Source of the DNA: Alphaproteobacteria bacterium | GTDB lineage: Bacteria; Pseudomonadota; Alphaproteobacteria; UBA7985; JAUIBT01 | Assembly (NCBI GenBank): GCA_030428565.1 | Contig: JAUIDR010000001.1 | Coordinates: 146,431 to 185,142 of the forward strand | Reading direction: 5' to 3' | DNA: 38,712 nucleotides | Shown here: positions 6,967 to 38,712 of the stretch, piece after piece | Layout: the number at the start of each line of letters is the position of its first letter | Position numbering within the stretch: position 1 is the stretch's first letter | Notes under the pieces: model-generated | Seen by the model: only the letters and a program-made list of their open reading frames with translations | Databases searched by the model: none | What the model was told of the DNA's origin: nothing | Made by a program: the position numbers and the translations under genes

Positions 6967-7876
6967 GCGGGCTCCCATTATTGTGTGTGGGCTTGGATTT
7001 GGAAGCTAGGTTAGGAGCCGCCGCACTGGCCTGCTAGGGACGAATGATCGCGTCCTAGCCACCGTAACAAGTGGCCCTACGCGCGCTTGCGTGACTAATC
7101 CGTCGCGACTGCCGATCCGAGCAATACAGCCCTTTATTAGAACGTCCAGAACTGCACCATGAGTTGGCCGTCTCCCTTCCTCCCCCTTGATGCGCTGCCA
7201 ACAAAGCTGCCTTTCACGCTTTTCGACTTGGCATGGCTGCACCTAGTCTCGAAGAGGTCGATCTCTCGATGGCTTGCCTCAGCGGACAACGGTCGACCGC
7301 AAGGTTCAAATTCGCAGCGGTAATGCACTTGCCCAGCAGCCTATTCACGTCCGGCATTCCAAAGGCTGCCAGGACTGCTTTCTGAAACGCCCCTTTCATG
7401 GGTTCTAGCCAGATCTGACGGTCGATGACGCCTGGCCTGATCTGCGCCCCTTTAGCTGAGAAAGGACGAAACGACATGTTGGTACTTGCGGATGGCATCG
7501 TCTTGCGAAAGACCGCCCTGATTTGCTGATCCGCCGAGGCAATAGCCTTTTCATGCCGAACGAAGCTGAATTCAATATCCTGAAGCGGTCGGAGTGAGGA
7601 ACACTGTACAACATCTTTACCGCGTTGCCCGCAGTGCAGAATTTCTGCGAGCCGGCTGCAGGACTTGGCATTCTGGTAGCGCGGGATTGACGATGGAAAG
7701 GGGTGCAGAGGCGCCGCAAAGGTTTCAAAAGAGCCCACCCCACAAGAGACGTTGGACGAAAGCCAGATCGTGCAACTTTGCAGGTGGCAACTTCCTTTCA
7801 AAAAATAGGGAATGGCAGTCGGCGAACCGCCATTCTCATATAGTTTTTTAGCAAAATTCGTGGCTAATTAATCCCA
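6967..7876. other. 910-base region without a recognisable gene
   Basis: No frame here matches a family I recognise. The longest, on the minus strand at 7214-7801 (195 codons), has unusual composition, no clear ribosome site and competing overlapping frames, so I do not call it. The stretch may be decayed accessory DNA; the adjacent genes up to 11.1 kb look acquired. Confidence 0.4.
7803..7850 (-). terminator. Probable bidirectional terminator after the cyclase-family gene
   Basis: GAATGGC (7811-7817) pairs with GCCATTC (7830-7836). The hairpin is flanked by an A-run at 7799-7806 and a T-run at 7845-7850, so on the minus strand it ends in a T-run about 40 bases past the stop of the 7877-8695 gene. 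It could work in both directions. Confidence 0.65.
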
Positions 7877-8695
7877 TCACAACATGGCAAAAATTCTAGC
7901 CGGTCCGCCTGTTCCTCCGCGATGCTTCGGCGCACCGATCACGAGCGTCGCGCCTGCGACCGGGACGCGGTCCAGATTGGCAATGTTTTCGATGCCAAAG
8001 CGACCCGCCGGCAGCCATGCATAGTGGGTGTCATATGTCGTCGACGCACCGATGTCTAAGGACAGTGTGTCCGAAGCAAGCGACGCCGCGTTCGACTCTT
8101 CGAGCAGCATCCTGGCCGCCTCTACGTGAAATCCGGGGTAGTGCTGCACCCCGTTGTCGTCCGCACCCCGAAACTTGGCACCAGAAACGTATTGTCCCCA
8201 TCCGGAATGCATGGCGACACAGGCCCCATCCGGGATCGGTCCGTTATTTGCTATCCATGCTTTGATGTCATCGGGTGTAACGCTTGAGTCGGGATCTTCA
8301 TTTGCCCGTTCCGCGATATCGATCACACACAAGGGAGCAATCAGCTGTGACACCGGAATTTCATTGACGGCGGCTCCATCAGCCGAAAAGTGCAACGGAG
8401 CGTCGATATGTGTTCCGGTATGCTCATTGAATGTTATTTTAGACACGTTAAAGCCGTGTTCGGCGAAGTTGAACATCTTTTCAGACGAAATGCCGGGGAC
8501 CCCGAAATAGGTCGGAAAGTCCTCGGAGAGTTCGTAGGTCATATCTTCGACCGAACCGTGGCCTGCTGCCATGGCAGGCGTAGCAGTAGTCACCCCGACT
8601 GCGCCAACAGCACCGGCGGACGCGGCCGCTCTGAAAAAGTTCCTGCGAGAAATCATTCTCTCTTTGACCGAGTTCATCACGCATATATCGCACAT
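7877..8695 (-). CDS. Tat-exported cyclase-family (kynurenine formamidase-like) hydrolase
   Basis: This is a cyclase-family metal-dependent hydrolase (Pfam Cyclase). The metal motif HxGTHxDxPxH is intact: His92, His96, Asp98 and His102 in EHTGTHIDAPLHF. The N-terminus carries a twin-arginine signal, SRRNFFRAAASAGAVGAVG (residues 16-34), then Ala-rich sequence, so the folded enzyme is predicted to be exported. Family members hydrolyse amides or lactones such as N-formylkynurenine; the substrate cannot be told here. ATG 8695 lies seven bases after GGAG; GTG 8698 and an internal ATG just before SRRNFF are alternatives. It appears to be a single-gene unit with its own terminator. Confidence 0.85.
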   Translation of the reverse strand: MCDICVMNSVKERMISRRNFFRAAASAGAVGAVGVTTATPAMAAGHGSVEDMTYELSEDFPTYFGVPGISSEKMFNFAEHGFNVSKITFNEHTGTHIDAPLHFSADGAAVNEIPVSQLIAPLCVIDIAERANEDPDSSVTPDDIKAWIANNGPIPDGACVAMHSGWGQYVSGAKFRGADDNGVQHYPGFHVEAARMLLEESNAASLASDTLSLDIGASTTYDTHYAWLPAGRFGIENIANLDRVPVAGATLVIGAPKHRGGTGGPARIFAML

Positions 8696-10907: not shown

Positions 10908-11114
10908 TTGGGCGCTTGCTATAGCTATGGCCGAGATCGCAGGCACTTGTGGGCCGACCGATCCCTGGGCACATGCGAGCGCGGGGCAAGCCCGACGACC
11001 AACCAACTAGACGCCCTGTTCTTCGGTTGGTCGGGTGGCGACGTGGCCGCCCTCTATTCGCGCGACGCGAATCGCAAAAGGCTAGCTCTTACGGCCTGGT
11101 CTGAGCTGAGCTGA
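10908..11114 (+). pseudogene. Tyrosine recombinase (integrase) C-terminal remnant
   Basis: In this 68-codon frame the last ~45 residues read like the C-terminal end of a phage-type integrase: ASPTTNQLDALFFGWSGGD, then VAALYSRDANRKRLALTAW. The Tyr in ALYSRD fits the catalytic nucleophile and RKRLA the usual tail. The Arg, Lys and HxxR parts are missing and upstream sequence shows no integrase motifs, so the gene is truncated or decayed. It ends inside the CTGAG repeat and lies ~120 bases beyond the 3' end of tRNA-Arg, the classic place for an integrase after integration into a tRNA gene. The similarity is judged by eye. Confidence 0.55.
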
Positions 11115-11135
11115 GCTGAGCTGAGCTGAGCTGAG
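11101..11135. repeat. Pentanucleotide tandem repeat (CTGAG)x7
   Basis: Seven perfect copies of CTGAG overlap the end of the integrase remnant, whose stop codon falls inside the array. A perfect run of this length is unusual and is a likely site of slippage. Confidence 0.95.
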
Positions 11136-20002: not shown

Positions 20003-20303
20003 AACGGACTCATTTGCTCTCTGACTAGAGCCCGGGACGAAAACGCAAGCTTGCGCGGACTCTGATTAATTGACGGGAACCGACTGCCTCTAAGACACAA
20101 GGGGCGCACCTGAGCCTCTTGCTTGAACATCGCGCATGATCATCTTGCACGATCATCTTGCACGATCACTGGGCGCAAATCAGCTCACCTTAGCGACAGG
20201 CCCAGAAACACGCGAAGCGGTGCAGTGATTACAAAACGCATAGGGTTCTGCGCACAGCCGGCTCCCAAACTCTGGCTGCATATTTGCGGTCTGCCGCGTC
20301 AAT
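20003..20303. other. Intergenic region between acpS and lepB, with short repeats
   Basis: This 301-base gap between same-strand genes has no supported coding frame. It holds the 13-bp tandem repeat at 20138-20169. In relatives other genes may occupy this position, but nothing gene-like remains here. A lepB promoter is probable but not identified. Confidence 0.4.
20138..20169. repeat. 13-bp tandem repeat, ~2.5 copies, upstream of lepB
   Basis: GATCATCTTGCAC is repeated at 20138-20150 and 20151-20163, then GATCAC follows. It lies ~140 bases upstream of the lepB start on the opposite reading sense. Its function is unknown. Confidence 0.85.
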
Positions 20304-23918: not shown

Positions 23919-24104
23919 ACCTTGGTTCCGATATTTGGGGAGAATTGAGCGCGGAATAATAAACGAAAGCGCTCAACATTCAAGCGGAGAGTTGATAAAC
24001 GGGATAAGAGGCTCTGGCGGGCGGGCCGCCTTGGTTATCCGCTTTTTGCCTCCCGCTTCACCAGCCGCCCTGCCCGCGTCATCACCCCGGCGAAGTAAGA
24101 GGCA

Positions 24105-24139
24105 GCCAACTGGATCAGCCAACTGGATCAGCCAACTGG
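24105..24139. repeat. 13-bp tandem repeat, ~2.7 copies, after folK
   Basis: GCCAACTGGATCA occurs at 24105-24117 and 24118-24130, then GCCAACTGG at 24131-24139. It lies 28 bases past the folK stop in the rpoZ-folK gap. Its function is unknown. Confidence 0.9.
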
Positions 24140-29638: not shown

Positions 29639-31499
29639 TGCAGATCACCCAGGTGAGCGCCCAGGTGAGCGCCCAGGTCAGCATCCAGGTGAACGCCCTA
29701 TTTCTCGCCTGGGTTCTCGCCACGCAGGGCACCCGCCGCCGCCTCGAGCGCAGCGCCCCACCACGGCCCCACCCGGCAGGTCGTGGCTCGATCTACTTTT
29801 CCCGCTGCTGGGCCTGACGGCTGCCTGGTTTAGCTTCTTCGGCCCGCTTTACTTGGGCGAACAAGACATGCCGGGCGGTCTGGGCGATACGCGATTTAAT
29901 ATGTTCGTCCTGGAGCATATCTGGCAATGGGCCTCTGGGCGCGCGCCCAGCCTAGTCTCACCCCAGGTGTTCTATCCCTACCCTTACGTGCTGGCCTTCA
30001 GCGACACACACGCAGGCACGGCCTGGGCTTTTGTGTTGGCGCGCTTTTCCGGCGCGGACATGTATTTGGCGTTCAAAATCTGGTTTGCTTTGGGCTACCT
30101 GGGCTCTTTCCTAGCGGCTTATCATGTCTTGCGAACATTGCAGCCAAGCCGCGTCTTCGCGCTTGCTGGCGCCTTCGTGTTCGCGTTTAGCCTGCCTTCT
30201 ATGGCACAAATCGGGCACCCCCAGCTCGCCTGGCGGGTTGCCATCCCCTATTGCTTTTTCTTTGCCCTAAGGTTTGGGCGCTTTGGGCGTCCAACGTCGG
30301 CGCTCGGTTTCCTGTTCGCCTGCTCGATTCAAATTCTGATCAACGTCTACCTTGGTCTGTTTGCCCTAATTCTATGTGGCATCGTCTATTGCGCGGCCGT
30401 CGCCACAACGCGCACACAACGAATAAGGTGCCTGAAGAGCGATTGGCGCCGCTTGTCACTGATGTTGCGATATCCGACCCCGGCCCAAGGCCTCCTCATC
30501 GCCGCAACAGCGGTTGCTGTGGCCTGCATGGCGACGGTGATGGGGTTTCATGCCTATGTCAGCATGCTTTACGGCTTTGCTCGCTCCTGGAGTGAGACCG
30601 CTACCATGGTTCCCCGCCCGCAGTCCTACCTCATTATGGATCGTTTGCCCTATTGGCGGCCGATTTCAACCTGGCTGCCGGAGGTTCCGGTGCGCAGCGA
30701 GCATGAGATTTTCTTAGGCATCCCAACAACCTTGCTTGTGCTCTGCGCGCTGGGTTGGGCGCTGGTTTGGGCGCCGCGTTGCGCGCCGGGTTGCACGCTG
30801 GCCCGCCCCCGTGACCTGTTTGCGAACAGCCGCATTCTGGCTAACGCCGCGCTTGTTACCTTCGCGCTTTTCACCGGTATCGGCAGCGTGTCAGCGTTTT
30901 TCGTCTTGGCGAGCCTTCCCGGCTTTGACGCTTTGCGAGCCGTAGCGCGCTATATGATAGTCTTTAGCTTCCCGCTCCTGCTTCTTATCGGCCTGCTGCT
31001 CCAAGAAATCCAAAACAGGGTCAACCTTCGAGCGCTAACCAGCGCCGTTGGGCTCGTCCTCTTTCTTTGGCACGCCGCAGACGTCAGGCTGGTGCAAAAA
31101 TCCAATTACGCTTCAGAAGACTCGCGAACTCAGATTAGAGCGCTAATTGCTCAGGCGGGCCCGCCAGATCGCCGCGAGCTGCTGGTTGTCGCACGCGCGC
31201 CTCATATATTTTACATTCGCGATATTGGCGCCATGCTCGCCGCGCAACAGATCGGACAACCCTTGTATAACGGCTATTCCGGTAACTGGCCGCATTCCGC
31301 TTACTTTGAACTCAGCAAAAGCTATGAATGTGAAAAAATCGCCGACGGTTTACGCGCCTATGGCGTCTGGGCGCAAAGGCATCGATTTCCATCGCTGGAG
31401 CAGGGCATTGATCGTATCCAGGTTTTGGGCCTTCCCGGATGTAGTATTGAGCTTGCTGACATCCGTCGCCGCCCTGCGCTGGTCGATATGAAAAATTAA
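29625..31499 (+). CDS. Large polytopic membrane protein, probable GT-C-type glycosyltransferase
   Basis: This 624-residue protein has about ten or more hydrophobic helices between ~50 and ~480 and an extracytoplasmic C-terminal part (~490-624). An early loop after the first helix contains Asp residues (DMPGGLGDTRFNMFVLEH), which fits the acidic first loop of GT-C enzymes that use polyprenyl-phosphate sugars. The first ~50 residues are a Pro/Gly/Arg-rich tail built from a repeated [RH]PG[EQ] unit. It is the last gene of the operon, overlapping the previous one by 14 bases, and a terminator follows. Function is inferred from topology and context. Confidence 0.8.
   Translation: MSADSADHPGERPGERPGQHPGERPISRLGSRHAGHPPPPRAQRPTTAPPGRSWLDLLFPLLGLTAAWFSFFGPLYLGEQDMPGGLGDTRFNMFVLEHIWQWASGRAPSLVSPQVFYPYPYVLAFSDTHAGTAWAFVLARFSGADMYLAFKIWFALGYLGSFLAAYHVLRTLQPSRVFALAGAFVFAFSLPSMAQIGHPQLAWRVAIPYCFFFALRFGRFGRPTSALGFLFACSIQILINVYLGLFALILCGIVYCAAVATTRTQRIRCLKSDWRRLSLMLRYPTPAQGLLIAATAVAVACMATVMGFHAYVSMLYGFARSWSETATMVPRPQSYLIMDRLPYWRPISTWLPEVPVRSEHEIFLGIPTTLLVLCALGWALVWAPRCAPGCTLARPRDLFANSRILANAALVTFALFTGIGSVSAFFVLASLPGFDALRAVARYMIVFSFPLLLLIGLLLQEIQNRVNLRALTSAVGLVLFLWHAADVRLVQKSNYASEDSRTQIRALIAQAGPPDRRELLVVARAPHIFYIRDIGAMLAAQQIGQPLYNGYSGNWPHSAYFELSKSYECEKIADGLRAYGVWAQRHRFPSLEQGIDRIQVLGLPGCSIELADIRRRPALVDMKN
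29643..29697. repeat. 12-bp repeats encoding [RH]PG[EQ] units
   Basis: About four copies of a CCAGGTGAGCGC-like 12-mer lie at the start of the 29625 gene. The unit is a multiple of three, so copy-number change would lengthen or shorten the cytoplasmic tail without breaking the frame. Confidence 0.85.
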
Positions 31500-34490: not shown

Positions 34491-35279
34491 CTATGCGTTC
34501 CCAGCGGCCACCGGTTGTCTCGATCTGTGAACCGGCCGATCTTCATAAATGAAACCCGAACGGATCTGACTGATGGGATCATCGCGCAGATCATGGTCCG
34601 AGGCGTGGGTGTGGACTATGACTGTACGCTTGCTGCCCTCGGCGGGCGGCGTCACCCGCGGGCCCGCCGTGCTCCGGCGCATGAGATAGCAGGCCCCGGC
34701 CGGTATATAGAGACTGCGCACCTGCCGTGTCGACAGCAGCTCACATAGCTGTTCGCCTGAACTTTCTCGCTGCCAGTCTTTGAAATTTACGTACTCGACC
34801 TTGCCCGCATTGCTTTGATCGGGGGTATCTATGACCCAGACCAGGGCGAAGGTATAGTCATCAAAGCGCCATCCCTTGGCTTCGTCTGGTTTGGCGGGCG
34901 ATCGGATGGCGTACTCATCGGGCCCATAGGGGCAAAGGTAGAGTTCTTCGCTGGACCGACCGCCTAGAAAACCGCGAACAGAATCTTGTTCAAAAATCCG
35001 GCGAATGACATCGTCATCAGCGCCGATCACAACTTGGCCCACCGCGTCCAAGGCCTCAAGCCCATCGCGCGCAGAAACCGCATCAGACGGGCATTTCTGG
35101 TCCGCGTTCAGCAGCAAAGTACCCGCTCTAGTAGGCTCCATAGTCTTCATATGATCGGGCAACAAATACGACAGAGGAACCACCAAATTCTTATCGAACT
35201 GATCCTTGACCTTGTTGTCAAATTGCTCCGGCAAACTCTCAAGACTGAATATTGCCGCTTTGCCAGTGTCGCTGGGCAT
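34491..35279 (-). CDS. Protein of unknown function paired with an AraC regulator
   Basis: This 262-residue protein is probably cytosolic: no signal peptide or membrane helix is evident. I do not recognise the family. The C-terminal half contains YTFALVWVIDTPDQSNAGKV, then VEYVNFKDWQR and SLYIPAGACYLMRR. The start at ATG 35279 is chosen because GGGAGG lies six bases upstream; ATG 35285 abuts that site and is less likely. It begins 57 bases after the AraC-type gene on the same strand, so the two are probably one transcript. Codon use looks ordinary for the window. Confidence 0.8.
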   Translation of the reverse strand: MPSDTGKAAIFSLESLPEQFDNKVKDQFDKNLVVPLSYLLPDHMKTMEPTRAGTLLLNADQKCPSDAVSARDGLEALDAVGQVVIGADDDVIRRIFEQDSVRGFLGGRSSEELYLCPYGPDEYAIRSPAKPDEAKGWRFDDYTFALVWVIDTPDQSNAGKVEYVNFKDWQRESSGEQLCELLSTRQVRSLYIPAGACYLMRRSTAGPRVTPPAEGSKRTVIVHTHASDHDLRDDPISQIRSGFIYEDRPVHRSRQPVAAGNA

Positions 35280-35336
35280 GGTCATCCTCCCAATTTCGGC
35301 AACCGCCGATTGCTGATGACAAAACGCTAGCGAAAC

Positions 35337-36149
35337 CTAGCCTTTCGTTCTTGAACGTTGGTGTAGTCGGGAAAATCTGCCCGGCGGCATTCCATATGCA
35401 CGGCAGAAAAAGCGCGTGAAGTGGGCTTGATCTGCAAAGCCAAGCTCATTGGCCACGCGTGCAATGGGAACGCCGAGTTTGAGCATTCGCCGCCCTTCAC
35501 GCAAGCGCACTTGGCGCTGCCAACGCGCCGATGGCAGGCCTGTCGCGCCCGAGAACATGCGCAACATTTGCGGCTTGCCTATGCCGATCTCGTTGGCTAA
35601 CTGATCAAGCGAGGGCGTTGCACCTAAGTCACTGAGCAAAAGCTCTTTTATTTGCCGAACGCGCCAGTCGTTGCATGTAGGAATAGCCTTCAAGTGCGCC
35701 ACATCGCGTGTCTGACTGCGGCTGCTTTGACGCTCAAAAGTCGGCAAGATCGCTTCGATGACCATTTCCTCCAAAAGCGAGCCATGGTCGTTGTTGAGAA
35801 CTGGGCTTATCAGACCCTGCATCGCTTTCAAAAGGCCTTTGTCAAAGACCACAGGCCGATCAAAATGCACCTGTTGGGAAGCGCCGAATTCTTGTTGCAA
35901 GTAGTCCGGCTGCAGGTAGACGCTGACCAATTGTGAGGTGCCTTCGCCCGACTGAATATCCGCCGGATTATACAAGGTCGTCGCTCCCTCTGGCGCAACG
36001 TGCGGCTTTCCGTTTAGCTGTAGCATTTCGTCGCCGATAACGTTGGCGCTGATGACAAACTCATCATGGCCGTGCGGTTCAAAGACCAAGTTGTCCCCGA
36101 TGATGACGGCAACTTCGATCCGATCGGTCACGATACGCCGTTGTTTCAC
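35337..36149 (-). CDS. AraC-family transcriptional regulator
   Basis: This 270-residue regulator has a cupin-like AraC-binding sensor domain (~15-150; FEPHGHDEFVISANVIGDEM). A C-terminal double helix-turn-helix follows (~180-265): LDQLANEIGIGKPQMLRMFS, ARWQRQVRLREGRRML and IARVANELGFADQAHFTRFF, ending FCRAYGMPPGRFSRL. The start is GTG 36149 because AGGAGG lies seven bases upstream; the frame extends to 36185 without support. Ligand and targets are unknown, but the gene directly downstream (34491-35279) is the obvious candidate. It is next to the left boundary of an integrated element. Confidence 0.9.
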   Translation of the reverse strand: MKQRRIVTDRIEVAVIIGDNLVFEPHGHDEFVISANVIGDEMLQLNGKPHVAPEGATTLYNPADIQSGEGTSQLVSVYLQPDYLQQEFGASQQVHFDRPVVFDKGLLKAMQGLISPVLNNDHGSLLEEMVIEAILPTFERQSSRSQTRDVAHLKAIPTCNDWRVRQIKELLLSDLGATPSLDQLANEIGIGKPQMLRMFSGATGLPSARWQRQVRLREGRRMLKLGVPIARVANELGFADQAHFTRFFCRAYGMPPGRFSRLHQRSRTKG

Positions 36150-36637
36150 CGGAAACCCTCCTCGTTCTGCTCGCGTGCAACCCACGCCTATCGCGAGTTC
36201 ACGATGCCCTAAGTAAAGTAACGTTCTAAAAACCCTACATCTAGATGCGCCGAGTGTTCAAAAACTTTGTACCACATTTAGTCTACATTGAGCACTCAGA
36301 TAAGAGTTGGGGCTCAAACTAACTGGCTGCAAAACGAGATTACGGCTGACGCGTTGAGGGCCGTTTACTTCTTATCAGGCACTACGAAGGGGTGAAGCAA
36401 TCCAAGCGGGCAAGCGTCAATATGCGCGAACAGACCCAACAGAGCCCAAATAGCGGGCGAAAGCACCGCTACATTTGCCAATCATGTTGTGATTTTCTTC
36501 AAAAATGGTGCTGCTGGGGAGCACTGAACATTCATTCATCAAGGCCCATCTGTATGCTTCTAATTTCTTATATTCATAAAAACCAATGCATTATTGTACT
36601 TGATTGCATTTCATCGTCTATATATATCCAATAATGT
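36150..36637. other. 488-base A+T-rich region at the left end of an integrated element
   Basis: No gene is supported; an 80-codon plus frame at 36392-36634 has Cys/Ile-rich content with no family sign or ribosome site. The last 120 bases are markedly A+T-rich, ending in TATATATCC before the integrase start. The near-palindrome GAGTGTTC (36252-36259) / GAGCACTC (36290-36297) is the only structured element seen. The chromosomal attachment junction should lie here, but no repeat partner is visible within the window. Confidence 0.45.
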
Positions 36638-37837
36638 ATGGTGGATGGAAAGGTGGATCAAATGCAAGCTCGCCACAAGCTAACCGCAGCCTTCATCAAA
36701 TCTGCACCACCCGGAAAACATTGCGATGGCGGGGGGCTATGGTTTGTCAAACGTAGGGACGGAGGCGGTCAGTGGGTCTTTCGCTACACGTGGGGGCAAC
36801 GCCGGCCAGAAATGGGATTGGGAAGCCAAGCTGACGTCACCTTAAAGCAGGCCAGGGAGAACGCAGCGAACGCGCGAGCTCTGTTAGCTCAGGGAAAGTC
36901 GCCGATCAAAGAGCGTGAGCGCAAAACAAGGGAAGCCAATCGCATTAGCATGACACTAGAAAATATCGCTGCGGGTGCCTTTGAGGCCAGGAAGGCAGAA
37001 CTGAAAGATGATGGCAAGGCCGGTCGTTGGTTCAGCCCTCTGGAACTTCACGTGCTGCCCAAGCTTGGAGGATTGCCAATTGAAGACATTGATCAACGAG
37101 ACCTAAGAGATGCGCTGGGCCCTATTTGGCATGACAAAGCAGCGACAGCAAAGAAGGCCCTGAACCGTCTTAGTATTGTTTTTAGGCACGCAGCCGCACT
37201 GGGGCTAGACGTTGACCTGCAAGCCACGGATAAGGCTAGAGCTTTGCTAGGAAAGCAGCGCCACGAAACCACCCATGTTCCGGCTATGCCCTGGCGCGAT
37301 GTGCCCGATTTCTATTCCAGCATTTCAGAGCCAATAGTAACCCACCTTGCACTCCGGCTTCTAATTCTAACGGGCTTGCGCTCGAAACCAATCCGCTTCT
37401 GTAGGCCTCAGGACATAGTCGCAGATATTTGGACTGTACCAGCCGCGGATATGAAAGGTCAAAAACACCGAACCCAAGAGTTTCGGGTGCCATTGTCAAA
37501 TGAGGCCCTACGCGTAATTGAACTGGCAAAACCTTTCGCACGAAATGGGTTTTTGTTCCCGTCCGCTAGAAAGGGCGTAATTTCTCACGCAACAATGTCC
37601 CGAATGATGGAGCGGCGAGGATTGTCCGCACGGCCACACGGCTTTCGTACAAGTCTCAGAACATGGCTTGCTGAAGAAACTGACGCTCCCCATGAGGTAG
37701 CAGAGACGGTACTCGGCCATACAGTCGATAGTGCTGTAGTTCGCGCCTATAGACGGACTGACTACATTGAGCAACGGCGCGTCCTGATGGAAAAATGGGC
37801 AGGGCATGTCGCGAGCGATGGTTTGGGCAGAACATGA
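36638..37837 (+). CDS. Tyrosine-type site-specific integrase
   Basis: This 399-residue integrase has an N-terminal arm-binding domain of the DUF4102 type (LTAAFIKSAPPGKHCDGGGL, then GQWVFRYTWGQRRPEMGLG). A core-binding domain (~105-205) and a complete catalytic domain follow. Catalytic residues are Arg248 (LTGLRSKPIR), Lys273 (ADMKGQKHR), His334 and Arg337 (RPHGFRTSLRTW), His361 (VLGH) and Tyr371 (VRAYRRTDY). It should integrate and excise the element that begins here. No tRNA adjoins it, so the target site is not obvious. Its stop overlaps the next start (ATGA at 37834), tying that gene to it. Confidence 0.94.
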   Translation: MVDGKVDQMQARHKLTAAFIKSAPPGKHCDGGGLWFVKRRDGGGQWVFRYTWGQRRPEMGLGSQADVTLKQARENAANARALLAQGKSPIKERERKTREANRISMTLENIAAGAFEARKAELKDDGKAGRWFSPLELHVLPKLGGLPIEDIDQRDLRDALGPIWHDKAATAKKALNRLSIVFRHAAALGLDVDLQATDKARALLGKQRHETTHVPAMPWRDVPDFYSSISEPIVTHLALRLLILTGLRSKPIRFCRPQDIVADIWTVPAADMKGQKHRTQEFRVPLSNEALRVIELAKPFARNGFLFPSARKGVISHATMSRMMERRGLSARPHGFRTSLRTWLAEETDAPHEVAETVLGHTVDSAVVRAYRRTDYIEQRRVLMEKWAGHVASDGLGRT

Positions 37838-38444
37838 AAAACCTAGGCGAGACGGAGAAGAACGCCCTAGTAGCTTTCATTGCCATGAAACTAATGCCTC
37901 TATTGTTTGGACCAAAAAATGACGGGAATTTCGCTAGTGCCCAAACAGCGAGTGAAAGGTTCAGGAAAATGCAGCTAGACGTTGGCGCTCTTGCCTCATT
38001 TGATGCAGATCTCGAAGGTCTGATTGGGGCGTCCGAAAACTCGATAGACGCGTATGACACCCTAAAATACGCAATTGGACAGCATTTAATACGGCGACCA
38101 ACCGAATTACTTCCATTTCTTGCTCATGCATGGCTTTCGTTATTTCTTCTGGGCGAAATTGTTGCACCTCCCCAAAGAAAACAAGGTCGCCCCAAAGAAA
38201 ACAAGGTCGCCCCAATGAAATCGGAAAGAAACTTATGATCTGGCGCATTCTGCTGAAGCTAAAAGAATTTGGTATCAACCCCACTAGGAACGACGCTACC
38301 GATGCGGCAACCAATCCTTCGGGCTGTGATCTCGTAGCCGAGGCACTTTCTCGACTTGGAGAAAAACCCAAAAGTTATGATGCTGTCAAGCGGATCTGGA
38401 ATGAGATACACAATGACACAAAAAGCAAAAGCGCCACGGGATAA
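37834..38444 (+). pseudogene. Unknown accessory gene split by a 20-bp tandem duplication
   Basis: As written there are two frames: 37834-38238 (134 residues, MKNLGETEKNALVAFI to SERNL) and 38235-38444 (69 residues, MIWRILLKLKEFG to SKSATG). Removing one copy of the 20-bp repeat at 38170-38209 joins them in one frame, reading QRKQGRPNEIGKKLMIWR across the junction, to give ~196 residues. The present ATGA overlap is then incidental. I do not recognise the family; the C-terminal part resembles small accessory proteins encoded beside integrases. The gene may be dead, or may switch if the repeat copy number changes. Confidence 0.7.
38170..38219. repeat. 20-bp tandem repeat x2 plus half copy, frame-breaking
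   Basis: A 20-bp unit beginning CCCCAAAGAAAA occurs at 38170-38189 and identically at 38190-38209, with a partial copy after. Because 20 is not a multiple of three, gain or loss of a unit changes the frame of the gene it sits in. Confidence 0.95.
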
Positions 38445-38455
38445 ACCGTTTTTAG

Positions 38456-38712
38456 CGGGCAGATCTGACAATTCATCGAGAGTTTCTGCCTGCTGATTTA
38501 CGGGACCCGTCGGATCGCATGTCTAGGCTGCGCACCTGTCAAGAGCGGCTCTTGCGCGAAGCGGACGAACAACGTGCCAGACAGCAGGCCAAAATCGAGG
38601 CACGAGCTGTCGAGGAAGCCGCGAGCGGCAAGAAAAAGCCTGGCCGCAAGCCAAAATTGCCTGACGACACCGTGACCGAGGATGCAAAGGCCAACGTGAC
38701 AGATCCGGACAG
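38456..38712 (+). pseudogene. IS1182-like transposase, 5'-truncated, continues past the window
   Basis: The plus frame is open from a stop at 38453 to the window edge. It encodes a middle section typical of IS1182-family transposases: RLRTCQERLLREADEQRARQ, an Ala/Lys-rich stretch, then GKKKPGRKPKLP and ANVTDPD, the approach to the conserved catalytic region. The ~200 N-terminal residues and left inverted repeat are missing: upstream of 38453 is unrelated sequence. So the element is truncated on its left, probably by deletion. Family is judged from the GRKPK...N.TDPD pattern only, and the rest lies outside the window. Confidence 0.65.

Follow-up and report, generated by a model that had tools for sequence, protein, structure and literature searches.

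A 20-bp tandem duplication splits a gene coupled to a tyrosine integrase in an alphaproteobacterial draft genome

The DNA analyzed here, referred to as the window, is a stretch of 38,712 nucleotides that forms the end of a contig in a draft genome of 114 contigs. In its last part a tyrosine integrase gene is directly followed by a gene that is spread over two overlapping reading frames. The features of this region, all on the plus strand, are as follows.

36638 to 37837, plus strand: tyrosine integrase, full length, 399 aa (Pfam Arm-DNA-bind_3, Phage_int_M and Phage_integrase)
37834 to 38238, plus strand: N-terminal fragment of the split gene, 134 aa, its ATG overlapping the integrase stop (ATGA); this frame carries the match to profile positions 68-128
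38170 to 38189, plus strand: first copy of the 20-bp tandem repeat, CCCCAAAGAAAACAAGGTCG (tandem-repeat scan and sequence)
38190 to 38209, plus strand: second copy, identical to the first, which shifts the frame (tandem-repeat scan and sequence)
38210 to 38220, plus strand: partial third copy, CCCCAATGAAA, in which 10 of 11 bases equal the start of the unit (sequence; putative priming role)
38187 to 38444, plus strand: C-terminal frame, SPQRKQGRPNEIGKK..., with an HTH-like domain; this frame carries the match to profile positions 119-197
38235 to 38444, plus strand: possible restart ORF, 69 aa (putative product), in ATGA overlap with the stop of the first fragment (sequence)

The two copies of the 20-bp unit are exact and lie head to tail. 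Identity at period 20 extends over 26 bases, and the duplication is the top-scoring tandem repeat of the whole window (score 95). In five shuffled windows, exact tandem duplications of 12-60-base units were absent, and 1.14 Mb of related loci held three other exact duplications with units of 15-60 bases (16, 21 and 42 bp), together with one 7-bp array at the end of a locus. Short exact duplications of the 20-bp kind are natural and uncommon, not unique. Elsewhere the window has four more tandem repeats that are exact and have periods of at least 12 (11101-11135, 20138-20168, 24103-24139 and 29648-29678), namely a CTGAG array and repeats with 12-13-bp units.

According to the first-pass annotation of this DNA, the two copies put the frame that opens at 37834 out of register, and the first protein ends at 38238 with a possible restart at an ATGA overlap. 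Both statements were confirmed from the repeat and the open reading frames: the ATG at 38235 shares bases with the TGA that closes the first frame, and the second frame, which ends at 38444, carries NEIGKKLMIWR. This C-terminal frame is open from upstream of the repeat onwards and reads SPQRKQGRPNEIGKKLMIWR...; it has a QRKQGRP of its own, encoded by copy 2, so that the segment shared by both frames is visible without any base change.

Residues R248, H334, R337, H361 and Y371 of the integrase, which we take to be the usual catalytic positions, are invariant in an alignment with four relatives. Integrases with 55-69% identity are present in many Rhodobacterales and other Alphaproteobacteria. 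The start of the split gene at 37834 overlaps the integrase stop at 37837, and the same overlap of a start with the integrase stop is found in the related loci L044, L015, L100 and L107. On pSymB of S. meliloti (L037), an integrase of 65% identity is followed by an overlapping 280-aa gene of different sequence (7184-8026) and then by an AlpA-type regulator. The slot behind this integrase is therefore variable. The 280-aa gene was not recovered by the profile described below and was left out of the counts.

Upstream of the integrase, the protein encoded at 34494-35285 (minus strand) matches HalD (Halogenase D) in Pfam with 9e-40 and lysine chlorinase BesD in NCBIfam with 7e-18, the latter far below the cutoff; a gene for an AraC-type regulator (35340-36185, minus strand) adjoins it. 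Two genomes of the same genus (G001 and G002) lack the split gene, and the window's own genome contains no second copy of it. The flank of the gene had no match in G001, and in G002 it matched in the AraC/HalD region only; two places in G002 are similar to this region. On the other side of the split gene, an open frame at 38456-38712 (plus strand) runs into the contig end and occurs once in the genome. An assignment of this end of the window to a known insertion sequence was not confirmed: there was no NCBIfam match, and the one match, of 69%, was to a hypothetical protein of the Xanthobacter plasmid pXAUT01. The frame could be left over from another mobile element.

Related integrases were then fetched, and the DNA behind 157 of them was read. 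Behind these integrases a recurring protein was found, in most cases starting at or overlapping the integrase stop. In tblastn searches against these loci, the C-terminal frame of the window matched L057 (Paradonghicola) with 7e-13 and L044 (Tropicibacter) with 2e-11, and the N-terminal fragment matched the same two loci weakly, in the same frame as the C-terminal match. A family profile of 18 relatives was run on all three frames behind each integrase. Members rated convincing or plausible turned up at 25 loci, the weakest being remote (L049, L063 and L088), and at each of these loci the match was one uninterrupted frame segment. Only in the window was it spread over two frames, with profile positions 68-128 in one and 119-197 in the other, overlapping at the duplicated linker QRKQGRP. 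The one-frame state was repeated by leave-one-out for the 18 relatives (1e-13 to 1e-42), and a profile built without the window found its C-terminal frame with 1e-20 and its N-terminal frame with 6.5e-6. Thus, the comparison of homologues proposed in the first-pass annotation gave 25 of 25 relatives in a single uninterrupted frame, 18 of them confirmed by leave-one-out. A sample of the class yielded three additional members, L170 and L171 among them, and these too had no internal stop. Among nine relatives checked for an exact tandem repeat within the gene none had one, and all nine gene lengths are divisible by three.

In an alignment with the relatives, the PQRKQGR of both window pieces falls in the same linker columns. 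The family has a C-terminal motif, TRN...SACDAVA...(S/T)(Y/F)..V...W, of which TRN, S-CD-VA and the final tryptophan are retained in the window. The profile leaves the N-terminal third uncovered, and the first 67 residues had no profile match. When the N-terminal fragment was searched directly, no true relatives were obtained in genome contigs, viral contigs, plasmids and 385 genomes of the class; weak matches in L003 and L005 lay at unrelated places, contained stops and were attributed to chance. No relatives of the L057 protein were found in phage and plasmid collections, and a search of viral contigs with the exact pattern found neither the single-copy nor the duplicate site.

Like its relatives, the window gene lies directly behind a tyrosine integrase and has a helical N-terminal part, a basic linker and the conserved C-terminal motif; in contrast to the relatives examined, all of which are single-frame, it is split. 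It matches the profile and has the family position behind the integrase, but does not have one uninterrupted frame. The window copy is a disrupted member of an integrase-coupled two-domain family. Other members include L102 (a Rhodobacteraceae MAG), L078, L056, L062, L170 and L171, the last two of which, both read out in full, sit behind integrases of other subfamilies. The junction with the integrase is often an ATGA, GTGA or TGATG overlap. No credible family model was found in Pfam, NCBIfam, PHROGs or PADLOC, and the library searches gave no match to an excisionase family. Judged from sequence, this is a family of undescribed two-domain proteins located directly behind tyrosine integrases in Alphaproteobacteria. 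Position and fold allow a guess that they act as integrase partners, direction factors or regulators.

The domain anatomy was assessed on structure models. The model of the L057 protein (mean pLDDT 85) has predicted helices at 20-36, 53-67, 69-78, 80-95 and 102-112, a low-confidence linker at about 113-126 and then helices at 127-144, 160-171 and 178-196. On this model the break in the window would fall in the linker that joins the helical N-terminal domain to a small HTH-like domain. The C-terminal frame of the window, modelled together with relatives, gave three helices (pLDDT 87). Fold searches of the L057 model returned no firm match, and Foldseek with the C-terminal model returned none with E below 1. 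In a second look, the best matches of the C-terminal model were the DNA-binding domain of StbA (Z 5.3, 64 aligned, rmsd 4.8), MntR (Z 4.3) and LexA (Z 4.3), and its matches, with Z of 3 to 5, were mostly HTH or winged-helix proteins (StbA, MntR, LexA and IdeR). This is suggestive of an HTH-like DNA-binding domain in the C-terminal part. Since the break lies at the linker of the modelled relative, the duplication would part the helical domain from a probable DNA-binding domain.

The two-domain gene that is coupled here to the 3' end of the tyrosine integrase gene has probably been disrupted recently, by a spontaneous event that inactivated it. We infer a single-copy ancestor from relatives that share no more than about 40% identity with the window gene. 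In this ancestor the ATG at 37834 would have opened one frame that encoded an N-terminal domain of five helices, then the basic linker PQRKQGRP, which contains glycine, and finally an HTH-like domain of three helices before the stop at 38444. Before the event, the single unit would have been flanked by CCCCAAAGAAA and CCCCAATGAAA, a pair suited to slippage. A replication slip between these short direct repeats (CCCCAA exact; 10 of 11 bases alike) probably duplicated the 20-bp linker stretch, and misalignment by one step would give exactly the present sequence. As 20 is not a multiple of three, translation goes out of frame beyond the first linker copy and meets a stop at 38238. The main product would lack the putative DNA-binding domain, and the gene has probably lost its function. 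The event would be recent, as suggested by the identity of the copies and the otherwise intact fragments. In E. coli, short repeats of less than 200 bp delete by RecA-independent replication slippage (PMC2991278). The same repeat could be removed by a further slip and the mutation would therefore be revertible in principle. The earlier suggestion of one ancestral gene split by the duplication is borne out by the relatives, which are single proteins with one linker segment.

The first-pass annotation had left open whether the duplication represents a recent inactivation or a reversible switch. Inactivation fits the evidence; the switch fared less well. In the latter case one copy would mean on and two copies off, as a selected phase variation for the mobile element. 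The repeat is perfect and removable by a single slip, and precedents are on record. The passages on the pneumococcal capsule genes cap3A, cap8E and tts in PMC4022640 and PMC4243769 (citing Waite et al. 2001, 2003) describe spontaneous, reversible tandem duplications within genes that cause phase variation. As in the capsule type, a short, frame-shifting exact tandem duplication inside an ORF would inactivate the gene here and be revertible in principle; in pneumococcus, however, variants were observed and reversion was measured, according to these passages, whereas here there is one static sequence in a gene of a mobile element. For fission yeast ssp1, the section in PMC13207564 on the work of Dan et al. 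2021 reports reversible, microhomology-mediated tandem duplications in which, as here, a short segment bounded by short direct repeats is present twice and a premature stop results. That case, as reported there, is eukaryotic with reversion shown, whereas the window case is bacterial and read from one sequence. Against a switch, none of the nine relatives checked has a repeat at this place, and no more than two full copies make up the array. Being revertible does not by itself amount to a switch, since a 9-bp pneumococcal duplication reverts at no more than about 1e-5 by the figure in the pertinent part of PMC4022640. We regard a selected switch as unlikely; it is less likely than plain inactivation and not needed as an explanation.

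Alternatively, re-initiation at the ATGA overlap could provide the second fragment alongside the first, and the two domains would work in trans. The break would sit in the interdomain linker of the model, the restart ATG at 38235 falls shortly after the start of the first C-terminal helix, so that almost the entire domain could be produced, and residues conserved in the family are kept in both pieces. However, neither the profile nor the leave-one-out search found any relative as two proteins, the ATGA arises from the ancestral codons CTT ATG ATC without a need for selection, and the restart product would lack the basic linker. We therefore give this reading little credence. Quite unlikely, too, is the broader proposal that the window captures a switch state, or a tolerated split, of an undescribed integrase partner in which attaching or detaching the DNA-binding domain would control movement of the element.

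An error of sequencing or assembly, with one copy only in the cell, appears very unlikely. The assembly is a draft, the window lies at a contig end and the species is represented by one genome, but usual short reads exceed the 40 bp of the array, which sits about 500 bases from the contig end. Repeats also tend to be collapsed by assemblers rather than invented. The chance of a programmed frameshift by which the two-copy sequence would still yield the long protein is negligible: the required change is formally -1, but inspection of CCC CAA AGA AAA CAA GGT CGC CCC AAA GAA AAC AAG by eye showed no X XXY YYZ heptamer in the register required, and the relatives need no shift.

Overall, spontaneous inactivation of an integrase-coupled gene remains the preferred reading. 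As a mutation, the duplication would be an ordinary and instructive case in which a slip between direct repeats of six bases breaks a mobile-element gene at a domain boundary. The integrase-coupled family may deserve more attention than the duplication itself, and the lasting value of the locus may lie in the family that the comparison has exposed.
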